From Synechocystis sp. PCC 7509 (lineage in GTDB: Bacteria > Cyanobacteriota > Cyanobacteriia > Cyanobacteriales > Chroococcidiopsidaceae), in the NCBI RefSeq assembly GCF_000332075.2, contig NZ_ALVU02000001.1:1507193-1571192 (forward strand): a DNA stretch of 64,000 bases, given 5' to 3'. Shown here in pieces: positions 20,715 to 41,740 of the stretch. The first letter of the stretch is position 1. Every line of letters starts with the position of its first letter. The notes beneath the pieces are model-generated. The model searched no databases, had not been told where the DNA came from, and worked only from the letters and a program-made list of their open reading frames with translations. The position numbers and the translations under genes were made by a program.

Positions 20715-21800
20715 TTACCACCCTTGCATTTCTACCAATTCTATGCAGAGATTATCAATCTTTTGCAAATTTGGACTATGAGGTAAAGTTGATTGTTGCA
20801 TAGCTTCATCCATTTGAGCGATTAAATCTTCTGCCATTTTCATGACTTCTTCGTAAGTATACGCGCCTTGCAAAATAGCTTTTAATTCGTCTACATCTCC
20901 GGCTACTTGGCGATTGACAATTACTTTACCTTGGCGCAATATTTCTAAACCACAACGCAACAATCTAATACAGTGCATTCCATGCTTTAAATCAAAACCC
21001 GATTGTTTTTCCATTTCTGCTCTTTTCGGATTTCTATTTTGCTGCCATGACAAATAAGCTTTCCACTCGCGCATTGCTCCTTGATACTTCTGGCTTTTTT
21101 GTAATAGGCGAATAAAATCAGCGCGACTATTAGTTAATTTTTGCGTATATGCTAAAGTTTCATCGGGCAAAGTATGCTGTTTTAACATACCTTTAAAATC
21201 AATATCCGCCGTGAGTAATTGATATAATTCTTCGGCTTCTTCTAAAAATTCAATTCGTCCTCTAACTAAGTTATACAAATATTCTAAAAAAGCATTTAAT
21301 TCGTCTTTAGTTAATGGATCTTCTAGGATGCCAAAATCTGCGGGTAAAGGCTTATTTTCTGGTGGATGTAACAACCATTTACGATGAGTTTCTATTTTTT
21401 TGATTTGAGCAAAAGCATAGCCAGAATAAGTATGTTTAACCTTTTTGCTGAGAAATAATTGTCTATGTTCAATTAAATATTCTCCTACTTCTGTAAGAAA
21501 AGGATAATTATCTAACCATAGCAATTCTAATACATTAGGATTTGCCGCCGCTAGTAATTGAACAACTTTTTTTAACTCGTAAATAACCGTATCTTCATTA
21601 CCATCTATAAACGGAAATATTCCTTCTTCATTCCAACCGCTATCTTTTTGTTCTATAGAATTAAATCCTAAATAGTATTCTTTTGGCGCAATAAACACGC
21701 CACGATAATCATAATCTGATTTAGGATGATTCAATCCGTAAGCATGACTACCAGCTAAACCCACAAAAATAGCTCTTTCTTCAACCTCTTTTCTTTTCAT
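20715..21800 (-). CDS. Nucleotidyltransferase-domain protein (DNA polymerase beta superfamily)
   Basis: The 361-residue protein begins with the superfamily motif GLAGSHAYGLNHPKSDYDYRG, where G-S-x-Y and the D-Y-D metal-binding pair are intact. The C-terminal two thirds are helical and unassigned. Stand-alone nucleotidyltransferases of this size occur as phage-related enzymes and in bacterial accessory DNA; the target here is unknown. It converges with ilvA and lies at the border of the accessory island. Confidence 0.78.
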   Translation of the reverse strand: MKRKEVEERAIFVGLAGSHAYGLNHPKSDYDYRGVFIAPKEYYLGFNSIEQKDSGWNEEGIFPFIDGNEDTVIYELKKVVQLLAAANPNVLELLWLDNYPFLTEVGEYLIEHRQLFLSKKVKHTYSGYAFAQIKKIETHRKWLLHPPENKPLPADFGILEDPLTKDELNAFLEYLYNLVRGRIEFLEEAEELYQLLTADIDFKGMLKQHTLPDETLAYTQKLTNSRADFIRLLQKSQKYQGAMREWKAYLSWQQNRNPKRAEMEKQSGFDLKHGMHCIRLLRCGLEILRQGKVIVNRQVAGDVDELKAILQGAYTYEEVMKMAEDLIAQMDEAMQQSTLPHSPNLQKIDNLCIELVEMQGW

Positions 21801-21887
21801 TTTTTTGCGTCTAAAACTTTAGATGCGCGATCGCACTATCAAGTTATCTTAAACAATATGCGCTTGCTATATGGAAAAGCGATCGCA

Positions 21888-22691
21888 TTACCCTAGCCAA
21901 GTTTCCAAATCTGTAATACTGGTAAAATCTAATAAAGATTCCCCCAAAGCCTCTAATCTTTCCAGACTTAGATTACTCACTTTTGCCGTTATTTCTAGCG
22001 ATAAACTACCCAACTTCCGGGTAAGCAATTTGAAAACTAATGTTTTTTCTCCATCGGTGCGACCTTCGCGTAAAATAGATTGATACATGGTAGACTCGCG
22101 CATCGCCGGACTCCTCATTAATTGTCGGATTGTCTGCTCCTCTAATTCTAACCCTGCTAAGATGCTTGTAGCTGCTACTAAATTACTCTGTTCTCTAGAA
22201 TCAGCAATTCGCTCTAGTTGATTTACCACTTGCGCTAACACGCTTTCCTTATCTGCTGCGCTGCTTAATACTGCATAAGGTAATAATCCTGGGGTTCTCA
22301 AAAACACCTCTACTGGTTCTTCCCATAACCGAATTGTGCGAAACTGATGAGTCATTACAGGCGTTACATATCGTTCTTGTCTAACTAAGTTTGAATTTGT
22401 CTTTTTTAAATAAATGACTACTTGTTGAATAGTTTGTTGGGGAAACTTACGTTTTAGACGCAAGTAATAATCCGCCATCCGAAAGGGCATTGTTTCATCG
22501 CCAAAAGTTTGAAACTCTGTGTGCAGGATAACGGTACTCGATTGCAGTAACATTACTGAATCGGCTCTAATGGGTTCTACATTTAGTTCGGTAGGATTAA
22601 TGGTAGTTAGACTAATTGCGTCACCTAATAACCAAGCTGCAAAATCATTAGAATACTGTTCGATCAGAAACTTTGAGATATTATCTATCAC
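21888..22691 (-). CDS. Rpn-family (DUF4351-ended) recombination-promoting nuclease-like protein
   Basis: A 267-residue protein with a PD-(D/E)xK-type core near the N-terminus (SVMLLQSSTVILHTEFQTF, where E and Q fit the active site). A helical part follows, and a C-terminal DUF4351-like segment (LLTRKLGSLSLEITAKVSNLSLERLEALGESLLD). Such proteins are abundant in cyanobacteria and relate to the RpnA-type nucleases that raise RecA-independent recombination. It could be mobile-element derived. Alone on its strand between the nucleotidyltransferase and the higBA repeats. Confidence 0.8.
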   Translation of the reverse strand: MIDNISKFLIEQYSNDFAAWLLGDAISLTTINPTELNVEPIRADSVMLLQSSTVILHTEFQTFGDETMPFRMADYYLRLKRKFPQQTIQQVVIYLKKTNSNLVRQERYVTPVMTHQFRTIRLWEEPVEVFLRTPGLLPYAVLSSAADKESVLAQVVNQLERIADSREQSNLVAATSILAGLELEEQTIRQLMRSPAMRESTMYQSILREGRTDGEKTLVFKLLTRKLGSLSLEITAKVSNLSLERLEALGESLLDFTSITDLETWLG

Positions 22692-22714
22692 TGGTAGATC
22701 ATTAGATGTAACTT

Positions 22715-22848
22715 AAAGCGATCGCATTTAAGACTGATGTAAAATCAATCTATTACCATCAGGATCGCACGCATAAATTTCTTTACCGTGAGAAGCTATA
22801 ACAATCTCCCCCGTTGGTGGGTAGCCTATATTAGTTAAATGCGCGATC
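22715..22848 (-). repeat. Left copy of the 134-bp direct repeat (displaced VOC 3' end)
   Basis: This stretch matches 23561-23694 at all but two of 134 positions, and both differences are synonymous when read as VOC coding sequence. It encodes the last 40 or so residues of the VOC protein, ending DPDGNRLILHQS and a stop. The reading frame that enters it from higBA is accidental. The two copies flank the higBA cassette exactly. Confidence 0.92.
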
Positions 22849-22849
22849 T

Positions 22850-23155
22850 CTACTTTTTCATTAACGGTTTGATGTTTTCTAACGCATCTGCTTCCTTCTG
22901 TTGTGCATGATATAAATCCCATCGCAGTTGAAGATTTAACCAGAAGTCAGGGGACATTTGAAAAAACTTAGCTAAACGTAGCGCAGTTCTAGGCGTAATT
23001 CCTCGGCGACCATTAATAATTTCATTAATTCGTTGGTAAGGAACTCTAAGCTCTTGAGCGAGAGTAACTTGAGTTATATTCATCGGCTCTAAAAACTCCG
23101 CTTTCAACATTTCTCCGGGATGCGTCGGAACTCTATGGGTAGGAATACGAATCAT
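22850..23155 (-). CDS. higA: HigA-type antitoxin (XRE family)
   Basis: A 101-residue protein beginning with the VAPI/HigA pattern (THPGEMLKAEFLEPMNITQVTLAQEL), with a helix-turn-helix (VPYQRINEIINGRRGITPRTALRLAKFF) and the C-terminal DLYHAQQ segment. It neutralises HigB and represses the operon. It lies 25 bases after higB, the usual toxin-first order. Its stop is beside the displaced VOC repeat. Confidence 0.92.
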   Translation of the reverse strand: MIRIPTHRVPTHPGEMLKAEFLEPMNITQVTLAQELRVPYQRINEIINGRRGITPRTALRLAKFFQMSPDFWLNLQLRWDLYHAQQKEADALENIKPLMKK

Positions 23156-23180
23156 CTGGGTTTCCTATAAGTGGATGTGT

Positions 23181-23474
23181 TTAGTGATAATCAACAATTT
23201 CAACATCTTCTGCGCCGTTTTGTGTCCAAATAAAGCAGATACGATATTGGTCATTAATCCGAATGCTGTATTGACCTTGGCGATCGCCCTCTAATGCTTC
23301 CAATCTATTTCCTGGTGGAACGCGAAGCTCATTTATTTCAACGGCGGAGTCGATTTGATCTAACTTTCTAAATGCAACGCTGTATAGGGTTTGAGGACAG
23401 GTTTTACGTGCAGACTTTGTATTTTCGCCATTAAAAATATCCTCCGTGCCTACATTTTTAAATGACACTATCAT
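23181..23474 (-). CDS. higB: HigB-type toxin (RelE superfamily)
   Basis: A 97-residue protein with the HigB core: LRVPPGNRLEALEGDRQGQYSIRINDQYRICFIW, ending DVEIVDYH. Family members are ribosome-dependent mRNA endonucleases, and the Arg/Tyr/His residues at the end are consistent with an active protein. It is the first gene of a two-gene unit with higA. The whole cassette (about 22849-23560) is bounded by two copies of the VOC 3' end. Confidence 0.92.
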   Translation of the reverse strand: MIVSFKNVGTEDIFNGENTKSARKTCPQTLYSVAFRKLDQIDSAVEINELRVPPGNRLEALEGDRQGQYSIRINDQYRICFIWTQNGAEDVEIVDYH

Positions 23475-23560
23475 ACTAACACTCTATCACGGTTATCATG
23501 CTATTATGTAATCATGTCTCTAGCTGTATCTGGCATTCCAATATTTCTCAATACTGCGGA

Positions 23561-23694
23561 AAAGCGATCGCATTTAAGACTGATGTAAAATCAATCTATT
23601 CCCATCAGGATCGCACGCATAAATTTCTTTACCGTGAGAAGCTATAACAATCTCCCCCGTTGGTGGGTAGCCTATATTAGTTAGATGCGCGATC
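23561..23694 (-). repeat. Right copy of the 134-bp direct repeat, inside the VOC gene
   Basis: This copy is the actual 3' end of the VOC gene plus 13 bases downstream, including an AAAGCGATCGCATTTAAG tail that is also present in the left copy. Differences from the left copy are A/C at the GGT/GGG glycine codon and A/G at a leucine codon. Confidence 0.92.
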
Positions 23695-23942
23695 ACACTT
23701 TCCAAATCTTTCACCTCTAAACACAAGCTCATCCTACTACTTTGACTACTCGCAAACTCAGATTCTTTGCTTTGCTGCGGCTGAAAAATACCCAAGCGCA
23801 AGCCAGAGATTTCAAACTCAGCATACACATTTTCTCGATAAATCTGCGGTTCTTGTTGCCATAACTCTGTATAAAACAACACGAGCTTATCTAAGTTGCT
23901 AGTTGCCAAAGTTACAAAAGCAGCAGTGTAATTAGATAACAT
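23574..23942 (-). CDS. VOC-family (glyoxalase-like) protein
   Basis: From the ATG at 23942 the product has 122 residues: MLSNYTAAFVTLATSNLDKL, then VLFYTELW, EFEISGLRLGIFQP, SLCLEVKDLESV and CDPDGNRLILHQ, a complete single VOC module. The longer upstream reading frame adds 51 residues that run into an IS end and are not credible. The Glu in SLCLEV and the DPDGN loop fit the family. Substrate unknown. Its 3' end is duplicated downstream beyond higBA. Confidence 0.85.
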   Translation of the reverse strand: MLSNYTAAFVTLATSNLDKLVLFYTELWQQEPQIYRENVYAEFEISGLRLGIFQPQQSKESEFASSQSSRMSLCLEVKDLESVIAHLTNIGYPPTGEIVIASHGKEIYACDPDGNRLILHQS

Positions 23943-23970: not shown

Positions 23971-24077
23971 TTATAAAGTAACGTGAGTTCGACAGAATTA
24001 AAAAATAGCAGGAAGTAGTACAGGTAAGCCTTTTGGCTAAATTTCAATAGACGGTTTTTTCGGCAAATAGTATAAGA
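23971..24077. mobile_element. Solo end of an IS also present at 45014-45814
   Basis: TTATAAAGTAACGTGAGTTC and the following hundred bases match the reverse complement of 45708-45820 closely, including GACAGAATTAAAAAATAGCAGGAA, GGTAAGCCTTTTGG and TTTTTTCGGCAAATAGTATA. No other end and no transposase are seen here, so only one terminus remains. It sits just upstream of the VOC gene and could serve as promoter DNA. Confidence 0.8.
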
Positions 24078-24101
24078 TGCTAAACCTACCATCAAAATTA
24101 T

Positions 24102-39957: not shown

Positions 39958-40040
39958 AGCGCTGATTCACAACAATTCCTTTTCCCAGCCTACCAGTATA
40001 GTTTTATCTAAAGTTACAAATAAAACTTCGCCTTAACCTC

Positions 40041-40108
40041 GTTTCATGGTAACTATACTTTGCATTTTGTCGCGCAATTCTTGAGCTTGTTTGTAGAAAT
40101 GCGATCGC
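40041..40108 (-). repeat. Displaced second copy of the acyltransferase 3' end
   Basis: Sixty-two of 68 bases match 40723-40790. Read on the minus strand it encodes [21 protein letters not shown] and a stop, against [21 protein letters not shown] in the intact gene. Changes are thus conservative, and the copy kept its frame and its stop. It lies just beyond brnA, so the two copies flank brnTA. Confidence 0.88.
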
Positions 40109-40139
40109 GCTAGTCATTATATTATTAGATTGTTGATTT

Positions 40140-40364
40140 TTAGGGCATTGTTTCAATCAACGCTCTCAGAACTTTATTGACCGTTTCGGGATTGGAAAAG
40201 ACTTTAGCAACATCTTCATCCAAAACAACCACTGTCATTTTTCTTTCCTTATCTTTTGCTGCAAATCGGTTAGGCTTTGCTTTCTTATAGTCGAAGGTAT
40301 ATTCTGGGGCTAAATTGTCATTAGTAGGTATTTCATCAGAATGCGTTGTTTTCATAGTCTTCAC
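40140..40364 (-). CDS. brnA: BrnA-type antitoxin
   Basis: A 74-residue protein (NLAPEYTFDYKKAKPNRFA; MTVVVLDEDVAKVFSNPETVNKVLRAL) with the BrnA ribbon-helix-helix-like end. It would bind the BrnT toxin and repress the operon. Its start lies inside the end of brnT (29-base overlap), the normal brnT-brnA order. Confidence 0.85.
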   Translation of the reverse strand: MKTMKTTHSDEIPTNDNLAPEYTFDYKKAKPNRFAAKDKERKMTVVVLDEDVAKVFSNPETVNKVLRALIETMP

Positions 40365-40614
40365 GTTCTTTTTGAGTTACAATACGAGCGCTGATAATGC
40401 GGATTACTTGGGGACGTTCAGTGAAGCTGACTAGCAATAGCCGATTTTGTTGAGAATGACCGATAATAATTTCCCGATGCTTTTGCCTTGAATGCAATTC
40501 ATCCTCAAAAATTAGTGCTAATGGATTATTAAAGACAGTTTGAGCCTCTTCAAAGCTGACATTATGCTTCTTAATATTGTTAGCAGCTTTGGTAGTGTCC
40601 CCTTCGTAATCCAT
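40336..40614 (-). CDS. brnT: BrnT-type ribonuclease toxin
   Basis: From the ATG at 40614 the product has 92 residues: MDYEGDTTKAANNIKKHNVSFEEAQTVFNN, then DELHSRQKHREIIIGHSQQNRLLLVSFTE and IRIISARIVTQKEREDYEN. This matches BrnT, a RelE-fold RNase. An upstream in-frame TTG at 40647 would add 11 residues not usual for the family. Catalytic Arg/Lys positions (RIISAR) are kept. Confidence 0.87.
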   Translation of the reverse strand: MDYEGDTTKAANNIKKHNVSFEEAQTVFNNPLALIFEDELHSRQKHREIIIGHSQQNRLLLVSFTERPQVIRIISARIVTQKEREDYENNAF

Positions 40615-40714
40615 AATTAGATTGTAACGGACTCGATAAAATCGCAAAAGCAGTAAATTAGTTGTAAAGGAAATACAACCAAAACGAGAATTGTTTGAGT
40701 ATAAATACTTTGCA

Positions 40715-41740
40715 CTACCCCAGTTTCATCGCAATTATACTTTGCATTTTGTCGCGCAATTCTTGGGCTTGTTGGTAGAAACGCGATCGCACTTTTCCCG
40801 GCGAACTTTCTATTACAGGCGTTTTATATACTGGTTGAATGTAGTAATCTAACTTGCTTCTGGCTGCCCAAACTCCCATTGAAGGAAACAGTAGAAAAAT
40901 AAACATTAATGGCGATAAGGGTAAAAAAGGTAATTGCAAGCGTCTTGCTAGACTTTTGATATTAAAAGCCCAAGAATGTAAGTATTCATTACCCATGCAG
41001 ACTACAGGCAAAATTGGGATAGAGGAAACTTCGCTTAGACGCATAAAACTAAGATCAAAGGTTTCTAATTGATGGCGTTTTTGCCAACCTTTACTTGGCC
41101 CTCGTAAACCTTCTGGAGCATAAAGTAAAATAGTTTTTTGCTCTACTGCTTGCTCAAAATCATTCATCTCGGCGCGAACTCCACCCATTACTTTTGCCCA
41201 ACCTGGAGGTAGCCACCAAATTAACCAAGGGTGTTCAAATAAAGATACATCTGCTAATGGTTGCAATACCCAACCTGGTTGAGTATTACTCAATAGATAG
41301 CCCAAACTTAAAAAGTCCCAAGGGAAACACATCCCGGCGTGATTCATCGCCACGATAAAGGATTCTGTGGCGGGTAAATTCTCAGTTTCGTGTAATTGGG
41401 CGCGAAAATAATGTTTGATGATGGGAGCAAGAATTTCCTCACTAAAATGTTGCTGATAACTCAAGTCAAATTGTTCGTTTTGAGGACGTGGTAAACGGCA
41501 ACCCAAACGCAGCCAGCGAATTAATAAAGCCACATAGAATCCCCCAGGGATAAGAAATAGTAAGTATTCCAGCCAATTCCAGCCATCAGAATCGCTATTG
41601 TAGCGTTGCCAATGACGGTTAAATAAAATCAGCCAACCTGGAGGATACCAAAGACAAAACCAATCGAACCAACTAAATTGATACGCCTGTTTTAGTGGCT
41701 CGATTGTGTCAACTTCGCGCAATTGTTTCATTTTAGGCAA
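40715..41740 (-). CDS. Lysophospholipid acyltransferase family protein
   Basis: A 341-residue PlsC-like protein with membrane-interface helices near residues 30-75. The acceptor/catalytic region is [20 protein letters not shown]. Here the His-to-Asp spacing is seven residues, longer than the H-x4-D of classical PlsC. The second motif is [16 protein letters not shown] and the third [10 protein letters not shown]. It likely acylates a lysophospholipid or related lipid at the membrane. Its start overlaps the aldolase stop by 8 bases, so the two are coupled. Confidence 0.8.
40723..40790 (-). repeat. Acyltransferase 3' end, in-gene copy of the 68-bp repeat
   Basis: This is the real end of the acyltransferase reading frame ([10 protein letters not shown] and stop). 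See the copy at 40041-40108. The region between the two copies holds only brnT and brnA. Confidence 0.88.

Follow-up and report, generated by a model that had tools for sequence, protein, structure and literature searches.

How chromosomal toxin-antitoxin (TA) pairs without a transposase or an integrase move is unsettled, and the purpose of HIP1 likewise. Both matters are touched by one locus of Synechocystis sp. PCC 7509. In a stretch of 64,000 nucleotides (contig NZ_ALVU02000001.1, positions 1,507,193 to 1,571,192 of the forward strand; hereafter the window), a predicted higBA pair is flanked by two almost identical copies of a VOC/glyoxalase-fold gene's 3' end. How did the pair come to be placed there, and what does the repeat represent? 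A reading of the sequence alone had proposed that the repeat forms the exact bounds of higBA, either inserted recently or flanked by copies that are kept similar by gene conversion.

Gene organization of the higBA locus

The features of the locus, all on the minus strand, are as follows (HIP1, GCGATCGC; G002, G003 and G004, related genomes; G000, the genome of the window).

20715..21800, minus strand: RlaP-type gene, the syntenic anchor common to G002 and G003 (PF10127, 91.3 bits; synteny)
21819..21844, minus strand: r', vestige of the edge of an earlier VOC tail, GATGCGCGATCGCACTATCAAGT, located upstream of the Rpn gene (96% to the VOC of G002 over 27 columns)
21888..22691, minus strand: Rpn-type nuclease gene with C-terminal DUF4351 (72.3 bits)
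22704..22714, minus strand: f, 11-bp flank of R2
22715..22848, minus strand: R2, detached VOC 3' tail, the inner end of which is a one-mismatch HIP1, GAGATCGC (GCGATCGC in the orthologues)
22850..23155, minus strand: higA, predicted antitoxin, 101 aa (TIGR02607, 109.5 bits, cut-off 47.7)
23181..23474, minus strand: higB, predicted toxin, 97 aa (PF05015, 70 bits, cut-off 27)
23515..23560, minus strand: D, what is left of the first codons of a pentapeptide-repeat gene, adjoining the VOC tail (aligned part 23517-23552)
23561..23694, minus strand: R1, VOC 3' tail in place (121 coding nt and 13 nt past the stop), with HIP1 at 23564-23571
23574..23942, minus strand: VOC/glyoxalase-fold gene, intact, 122 aa (Pfam Glyoxalase, 20.4 bits, just below the cut-off of 20.6; orthologues in G002, G003 and G004)

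The two genes higB and higA are adjacent with the toxin gene first, and are recognized by profile as a HigBA type II pair; by gene content and order, they form a predicted HigBA type II toxin-antitoxin operon. The Rpn-type protein of the window scored 48.4 bits against TIGR01784, under the cut-off of 52.1, and its G003 orthologue scored 63.4. Upstream of VOC, a stretch of 112 bp (window 23971-24082) has a 90% inverted copy about 22 kb away (L002 1419-1530, near 45.7-45.8 kb).

Direct repeat around higBA

The repeat search gave a direct repeat of 134 bp, R2 at 22715-22848 and R1 at 23561-23694, with 132 of 134 positions matching (98.5%) and a start-to-start distance of 846 bp. By script comparison only two mismatches exist, 22755/23601 (A/C) and 22838/23684 (A/G), both synonymous in the VOC frame. 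The outer copy R2 consists of the final 121 coding nucleotides of VOC and 13 nucleotides past the stop. In extent, content and differences the repeat is therefore as the sequence-only reading had described it, and it is real. The repeat is not due to chance: direct repeats of at least 60 bp with more than 90% identity within 6 kb were searched for in 464 kb of the genome (the window and 20 stretches of 20 kb), and the sole other match was a tandem array at the start of L081.

The claim that higBA is exactly bounded by the repeat holds at one end. At the higA side the stop codon (22850) and the end of R2 (22848) are 1 bp apart, but on the higB side a leader of 86 bp separates the start of higB (23474) from R1 (23561), and about 46 bp of this leader is derived from the pentapeptide-repeat gene. 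The only ORFs of at least 55 aa between R1 and R2 are higB and higA, and no transposase or integrase was found among them; the repeat search detected no inverted-repeat pair of at least 20 bp bounding the unit. A crossover between R2 and R1 is predicted to give Rpn - f - tail - VOC, the order found in G003, and the product encodes the same VOC protein, in agreement with the earlier prediction that loss across the repeats leaves the VOC gene intact.

The VOC structure was seen in a single assembly, which could suggest an artefact of assembly. We consider an artefact extremely improbable, since G000 (4.9 Mb in 4 contigs) is rated 100% complete, the two copies differ at two sites, their distinct flanks recur in other genomes, and an analogous structure around a brnTA pair is present in two independent assemblies.

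The VOC site in related genomes

A total of 59 related genomes were searched by DNA, including 5 of the genus, two of which are less than 75% complete. The order in the window is RlaP gene - r' - Rpn gene - f - R2 - higBA - D - R1 - VOC. In G002 it is RlaP gene - pentapeptide-repeat gene - D - VOC tail - VOC, both higBA and the Rpn gene being absent from the VOC site. G003 shows RlaP gene - pentapeptide gene - D - decayed VOC tail (R') - Rpn gene - f - VOC tail - VOC, and G004 shows f - VOC tail - VOC with other genes beyond. The VOC site of G003 is free of higBA, with the Rpn gene, the 11-bp flank and VOC contiguous, and its alignment with the window extends without a break over the Rpn gene and f and into the tail (window 21827-22851, 77%). 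R' of G003 is a longer decayed VOC tail in the same place as r' of the window. The local alignment scores of D against the start region of the pentapeptide gene were 30 (G002) and 40 (G003), and neither was reached by any of 2000 shuffles; the likeness of f to the VOC flank is short, with 9 of 11 bases in G004 and 7 of 11 in G003.

The arrangement Rpn-f-tail-VOC of G003 fits the outer flanks of the window unit, and VOC tails of G002 and G003 also have the inner flank D beside them. The junctions D|tail and f|tail thus both seem to pre-date the present arrangement; since D also follows the VOC tail in G002 and G003, the D|VOC-tail junction would be older than the presence of higBA in the window. 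Judged from these alignments, the f|tail junction of G003 is a site that higBA does not occupy, and the empty site that an alignment to relatives was expected to reveal is indeed there, though with the Rpn gene lying between VOC tails. A simple single insertion of higBA is not supported by this comparison, because its inner neighbour D, the start of the pentapeptide gene, already adjoins VOC tails in G002 and G003. The VOC site is, as the gene orders indicate, one at which modules have been stacked and swapped, with more than one cassette insertion in the relatives, and the window locus looks like two old arrangements joined together, not like a fresh target duplication.

Homologues of higBA and age of the repeat

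The HigBA pair of the window is 81-82% identical to the pairs of G002 and G003, which are 86% identical to each other. G000 and G002 share 88% identity in the RlaP gene, against 81% for HigBA, so the window pair is not a vertical orthologue of the G002 and G003 pairs in any simple way. These homologues occupy a different locus, where their neighbour in G003 is a GIY-YIG-like gene (21.3 bits, cut-off 22.6), and no direct repeats were found around them in G002 (L103) or G003 (L102). Relatives that carry higBA without the repeat had been named beforehand as evidence that would speak against the earlier interpretation; half of this was found, as higBA of G002 and G003 (81-82%) is repeat-free, but elsewhere. 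Because higBA stands elsewhere without such repeats, the repeat belongs to the VOC site and not to higBA. The view of the repeats as the ends of a mobile higBA unit was rejected, as the homologues L103 and L102 are repeat-free at another locus and the repeats are target-gene sequence. A plasmid origin was also rejected: 18 plasmid records gave partial matches of 65-82% identity, mostly higBA-like, and none covered 80% of the query.

R1 and R2 share six changes that are absent from G002, G003 and G004, indicating that their divergence, or their homogenisation, came after the lineage had split from G002. A recent insertion and gene conversion both fit the likeness of R1 and R2, which as a sequence comparison would not separate them. 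At both variable sites R1 agrees with G002, where the tail is linked to D, and R2 agrees with G003, where it is linked to f; with two sites, and with six other changes common to both copies, this match is weak. The two differences were also considered for dating or polarising the event and set aside, two synonymous changes out of two not being strong where 29% is expected by chance.

An order could also be permuted within one lineage without import, by tandem duplication between VOC tails, unequal crossover and deletions. Such internal reshuffling would account for the related modules in permuted order between G003 and the window, for the remnant r' of an older tail kept in the window, for the derived changes shared by R1 and R2, and for the G002 order, which is what a crossover between G003-type tails would leave. 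We nevertheless regard it as unlikely, as three or more steps are needed and higBA, which lies at another locus in G002 and G003 (beside the GIY-YIG-like gene in the latter), is left unexplained.

Recurrence of gene-tail repeats at other TA loci

The window contains a second tail repeat, around a BrnT/BrnA-like pair.

40020..40111, minus strand: detached tail copy of a 341-aa gene, 85% identical, with HIP1 3 bp inside its inner end
40140..40647, minus strand: BrnT (40336-40647) and BrnA-like (40140-40364) pair between the tail copies (PF04365, 87.7 bits at window 40366-40599, G000:C1:1547558-1547791; ORFs)
40701..40793, minus strand: 3' tail in place of the 341-aa gene (40715-41740, minus strand)

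The ORF at 40140-40364 beside BrnT is presumably BrnA-like. The same brnTA tail structure is present in G002, where the copies are 92.6% identical (L033 10957-11706).

A total of 134 TA loci were then screened, 66 in the genus and 68 in the rest of the family. The genus sample comprised all matches listed (4 HigB, 30 BrnT, 20 ParE and 12 HicA), and the sample from the rest of the family comprised 10 of 10 HigB, 40 of 58 BrnT and 18 of 45 ParE matches, with HicA outside the sample. The gene-tail script looked for direct repeats that span the toxin gene and have one of their copies at a neighbouring gene's 3' end. It flagged 10 of the 134 loci, and nine were kept after L123 was dropped by eye as a repeat element: L101 (higBA of the window), L104, L108, L114, L117 and L128, L127, L137 and L236. 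Among these, L117 and L128 are the brnTA pair of G002 and the window, L104 is the second HigBA of G003, behind a gene that we take to be cobM-like, and L137 is a ParDE pair in the window genome; L108 was missed by the first gene-tail script and found by a relaxed one. As a random control, 3 of 600 slots were flagged in 1.2 Mb of the window genome (L090 once, L094 twice), and these look like paralogous neighbours as far as L094, the one inspected, is representative.

Gene-tail repeats therefore recur at TA loci, 9/134 against 3/600 random slots (Fisher one-sided p = 2.4e-5), and in the window genome alone 3/18 (L101, L128 and L137) against 3/600 (p = 3.9e-4). The mirror case, repeats of gene heads, was found at 1/134 TA loci (L236) against 3/600 controls, indicating that the effect is one-sided. 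The pattern is concentrated in the genus, 8/66 loci against 1/68 in the rest of the family (Fisher two-sided p = 0.016). HIP1 is common outside the genus and in it alike (1.12 and 1.56 per kb), and the concentration of the pattern in the genus counts against a family-wide mechanism.

In a wider count, flanking repeats were present at 14 of the 59 TA loci that had full flanks, at 7 of 300 random windows and at 4 of 29 DUF4351 loci; this count was rejected as evidence and kept as background, several of the 14 being interspersed repeat elements by eye (L113, L123, L131 and L146). DUF4351/Rpn loci as a class gave 0/30 by the strict gene-tail script. The Rpn gene of G003 at VOC (L058) does lie between VOC tails, the older of which is 65% identical and so below the 70% limit of the script. 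In 1.264 Mb of the genome, the only short clean tail pair beyond the two window cases was L180 (50 bp), and the remaining tail pairs, among which L094 was inspected, look like tandem paralogues or a CRISPR-like array.

Several other repeats were observed in the course of this survey. In L180 (1898-1947 / 2374-2423), an ORF of 94 aa lies between the 50-bp gene tail and its 92% copy, and the joint is free of HIP1. In G001 and G002, the C-terminal DUF4351 region of Rpn-like genes is duplicated as direct repeats of 243-308 bp with 79-93% identity (L052, L054, L057, L059, L062, L063, L068 and L076), and the duplicated regions possibly form extra short C-terminal proteins. In L074 (659-757 / 1849-1946), an Rpn-like gene of the window genome lies between direct repeats of 99 bp (84%), which have HIP1 words at both ends and do not represent a gene tail. 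In L077 (908-947 / 2702-2741), a pentapeptide-like gene stands between two Rpn-like genes, and the first 40 bp around its start are found again 1.8 kb further along (95%). In L137 (488-612 / 1897-2021), where ParDE lies behind a gene, the tail copies are the same mid-way and different at both ends, like a gene-conversion tract.

HIP1 at the junctions of detached tails

HIP1 fills these cyanobacterial genomes, and its function in cyanobacteria is debated. It occurs 588 times in 464 kb of the window genome, and a random position in 1.264 Mb falls within 4 bp of it with a probability of 0.021. An exact HIP1 is located at the inner end of the detached tail in L104, L108, L114, L117 and L128, L127 and L137; L117 and L128, with HIP1 5 and 3 bp inside the repeat, were counted as one event. 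The inner end of L101 is the one-mismatch word GAGATCGC, the position being an exact GCGATCGC in the orthologues of G002, G003 and G004. HIP1 was absent from the junction of L236 and from that of L180, the cargo of which is not a TA pair. Exact HIP1 thus marks 6 of 9 independent junctions, L180 included, where 2.1% is expected for each (binomial p = 7.5e-9, for a small number of junctions inspected by eye and not blind); with the slightly higher HIP1 density of TA loci the value is p = 2.5e-8. The older tail at the Rpn gene of G003, which ends 2 bp past HIP1 by BLAST and about 11 bp by eye, was left uncounted, and taking it as a miss gives 6/10 (p = 1.8e-8).

In L108, L114, L127 and L137, HIP1 of the detached tail stands in the reading frame of the gene and the intact copy is without it, the detached A-I-A corresponding to P-I-A, A-T-A, A-V-A and V-I-V, respectively, in the intact copies. 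At the position of the L137 joint, the words in two orthologues differ from HIP1 by one base. Since the word is in frame in the detached copy and missing from the intact copy in these four cases, the copies look like different alleles, and the detached tail seems to start at a HIP1 belonging to another allele of the gene.

Proposed import of modules with displacement of the gene tail

These observations led us to the following reading, for which we put the chances at about even: the repeat arose when a gene tail was displaced by the import of a module, with homology on one side and a HIP1 or otherwise illegitimate joint on the other. The incoming DNA would consist of the 3' part of VOC, D and higBA, and its homology to the resident VOC gene would let the two pair. 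At its other end an illegitimate joint, or one of short homology, would form within the tail of the resident gene, presumably at the HIP1 site GCGATCGC (codons A-I-A), which is now GAGATCGC. The new VOC end together with higBA would replace the old end, and the old tail with f would be pushed downstream, giving the order VOC-R1-D-higBA-R2-f-Rpn. As the VOC protein would never be broken, the event could be tolerated. The Rpn gene between VOC tails would be the trace of earlier rounds, and later recombination between tails could remove the module cleanly or homogenise the copies. Arrival from another cell, the homologous crossover and a role of HIP1 beyond that of short homology are parts of this scheme that we infer.

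The import reading explains why a module stands behind an intact gene, why the detached tail can carry the older flank, and why tails are stacked at VOC. In its favour, the detached tail of L137 ends like the orthologue of G002 and continues into the downstream flank of that orthologue (97/100 bp; 87/100 for G004), and the intact gene next to ParDE differs from it in 3' end and flank. This is suggestive of a gene end beside the cargo that came from a donor and a displaced tail that came from the recipient. The Rpn gene of G003, lying between a decayed VOC tail and intact VOC, also agrees with import. Against it, the left end of the L137 detached tail resembles G004 and not G002, and outside the genus the pattern was found at one of 68 TA loci, without HIP1. 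No donor haplotype VOC-D-higBA lacking the detached tail was detected among the 59 genomes searched by DNA (5 from the genus, two less than 75% complete). In the other tail pairs and R' of G003, 57 of 144 coding differences are synonymous (40%, chance being 29-30% in three tails), a mild excess that neutral decay of a plain duplicate fits nearly as well.

That codon pattern, being close to neutral decay, also agrees with a long target duplication, in which a linear TA fragment joins two sister chromosomes at nearby points and the interval between them is duplicated; the two joining points are perhaps two HIP1 sites of the VOC tail. HIP1-type words do bound the repeat on both sides at VOC and at brnTA of G002, and target duplications of similar form, long and variable, are cited for restriction-modification (RM) systems in the accessible part of PMC3031569. 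Under this explanation, however, the insert would end by coincidence at D, a segment that VOC tails of G002 and G003 already adjoin, and the different 3' ends of the L137 copies also speak against it. We hold it to be rather unlikely.

The near-identity of R1 and R2 (98.5%, with six lineage-specific changes shared) also weighs against import, which would need a very close donor or later gene conversion. Gene conversion as the whole account, that is, an old insertion the tails of which have been kept alike and which would be neither recent nor informative about mechanism, draws on the same six common changes and on the copies of L137, alike mid-way and unlike at both ends as in a conversion tract. 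It appears very unlikely to us: the other tail pairs are 71-94% identical, so that conversion would need special strength at VOC, and it is compatible with the import reading rather than exclusive of it. Returning to import with tail displacement, the earlier interpretation is partly supported, in that clean loss is permitted, but the repeat would be a tail displaced by module swapping rather than the ends of a higBA cassette.

A more general proposal is that HIP1 serves as a preferred joint for the acquisition of TA modules, with a homology anchor in the host gene, closure at a gene-internal HIP1 and displacement of the old tail, the tail repeats then allowing modules to stack, swap and leave. 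This we put forward tentatively, as a possibility with somewhat less than an even chance of being right.

Relation to known systems

The cargo genes are ordinary members of the type II families HigBA, BrnTA and ParDE by profile score, and what is new relative to the usual accounts of these families lies in the placement of the genes. Long target duplications were reportedly described for RM insertions by Nobusato et al. in 2000 and Furuta et al. in 2010. At the higBA locus, a long direct repeat of target sequence (134 bp at 98.5%) does flank an addiction module. As far as the accessible text of the citing papers goes (PMC3874152 and PMC3031569), RM systems are inserted with long target duplication, and the locus resembles them in its addiction-type gene pair, its long direct repeat of target sequence and its freedom from a transposase; PMC2654758, in its accessible part, only cites that work. 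It differs in that the flanks in relatives point to two older haplotypes and in that HIP1 lies at the joint.

For arrays of type VI secretion system (T6SS) effector-immunity genes, the accessible part of PMC5361080 proposes an anchored import that displaces the old 3' piece, and homology-facilitated illegitimate recombination is a general concept in that of PMC2884548. With the T6SS arrays and the orphan Rhs 3' ends, so far as PMC5361080 could be consulted, the import proposed here would share a homologous anchor in a conserved part of a gene, an illegitimate joint on the opposite side and an old 3' piece downstream, with repeated rounds giving arrays. It would differ from those arrays in its cargo, which is intracellular (a TA pair or an Rpn nuclease), in an anchor gene that has no relation to this cargo, and in an illegitimate joint that lies mostly at HIP1. 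The accessible part of a review on HIP1 (PMC4390886) mentions evidence that ties HIP1 to site-specific recombination and, at low efficiency, to illegitimate recombination, and finds none for homologous recombination. In agreement with HIP1-promoted excision and recombination in cyanobacteria, GCGATCGC is found at joints of rearrangement, and in contrast to those cases it marks here the starts of displaced gene tails beside TA modules. No report linking HIP1 or tail displacement to TA modules was found among the papers listed by searches of the open-licence literature. The process of anchored import is thus already known, and the new elements are TA pairs as the cargo and HIP1 as the joint.

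The recurrence together with HIP1 makes this a case of wider interest than a single higBA locus. A displaced gene tail is a readable scar that marks the target gene, the joint and the older neighbour, and the arrangement shows how an addiction module can arrive and depart with its neighbour gene intact. The coincidence with HIP1 (6 of 9 independent junctions, with 2.1% expected for each) makes a role of HIP1 in module acquisition testable by transformation. If the reading of HIP1 as the joint is true, a module would land right behind an intact gene, and modules could later stack, swap and leave harmlessly.
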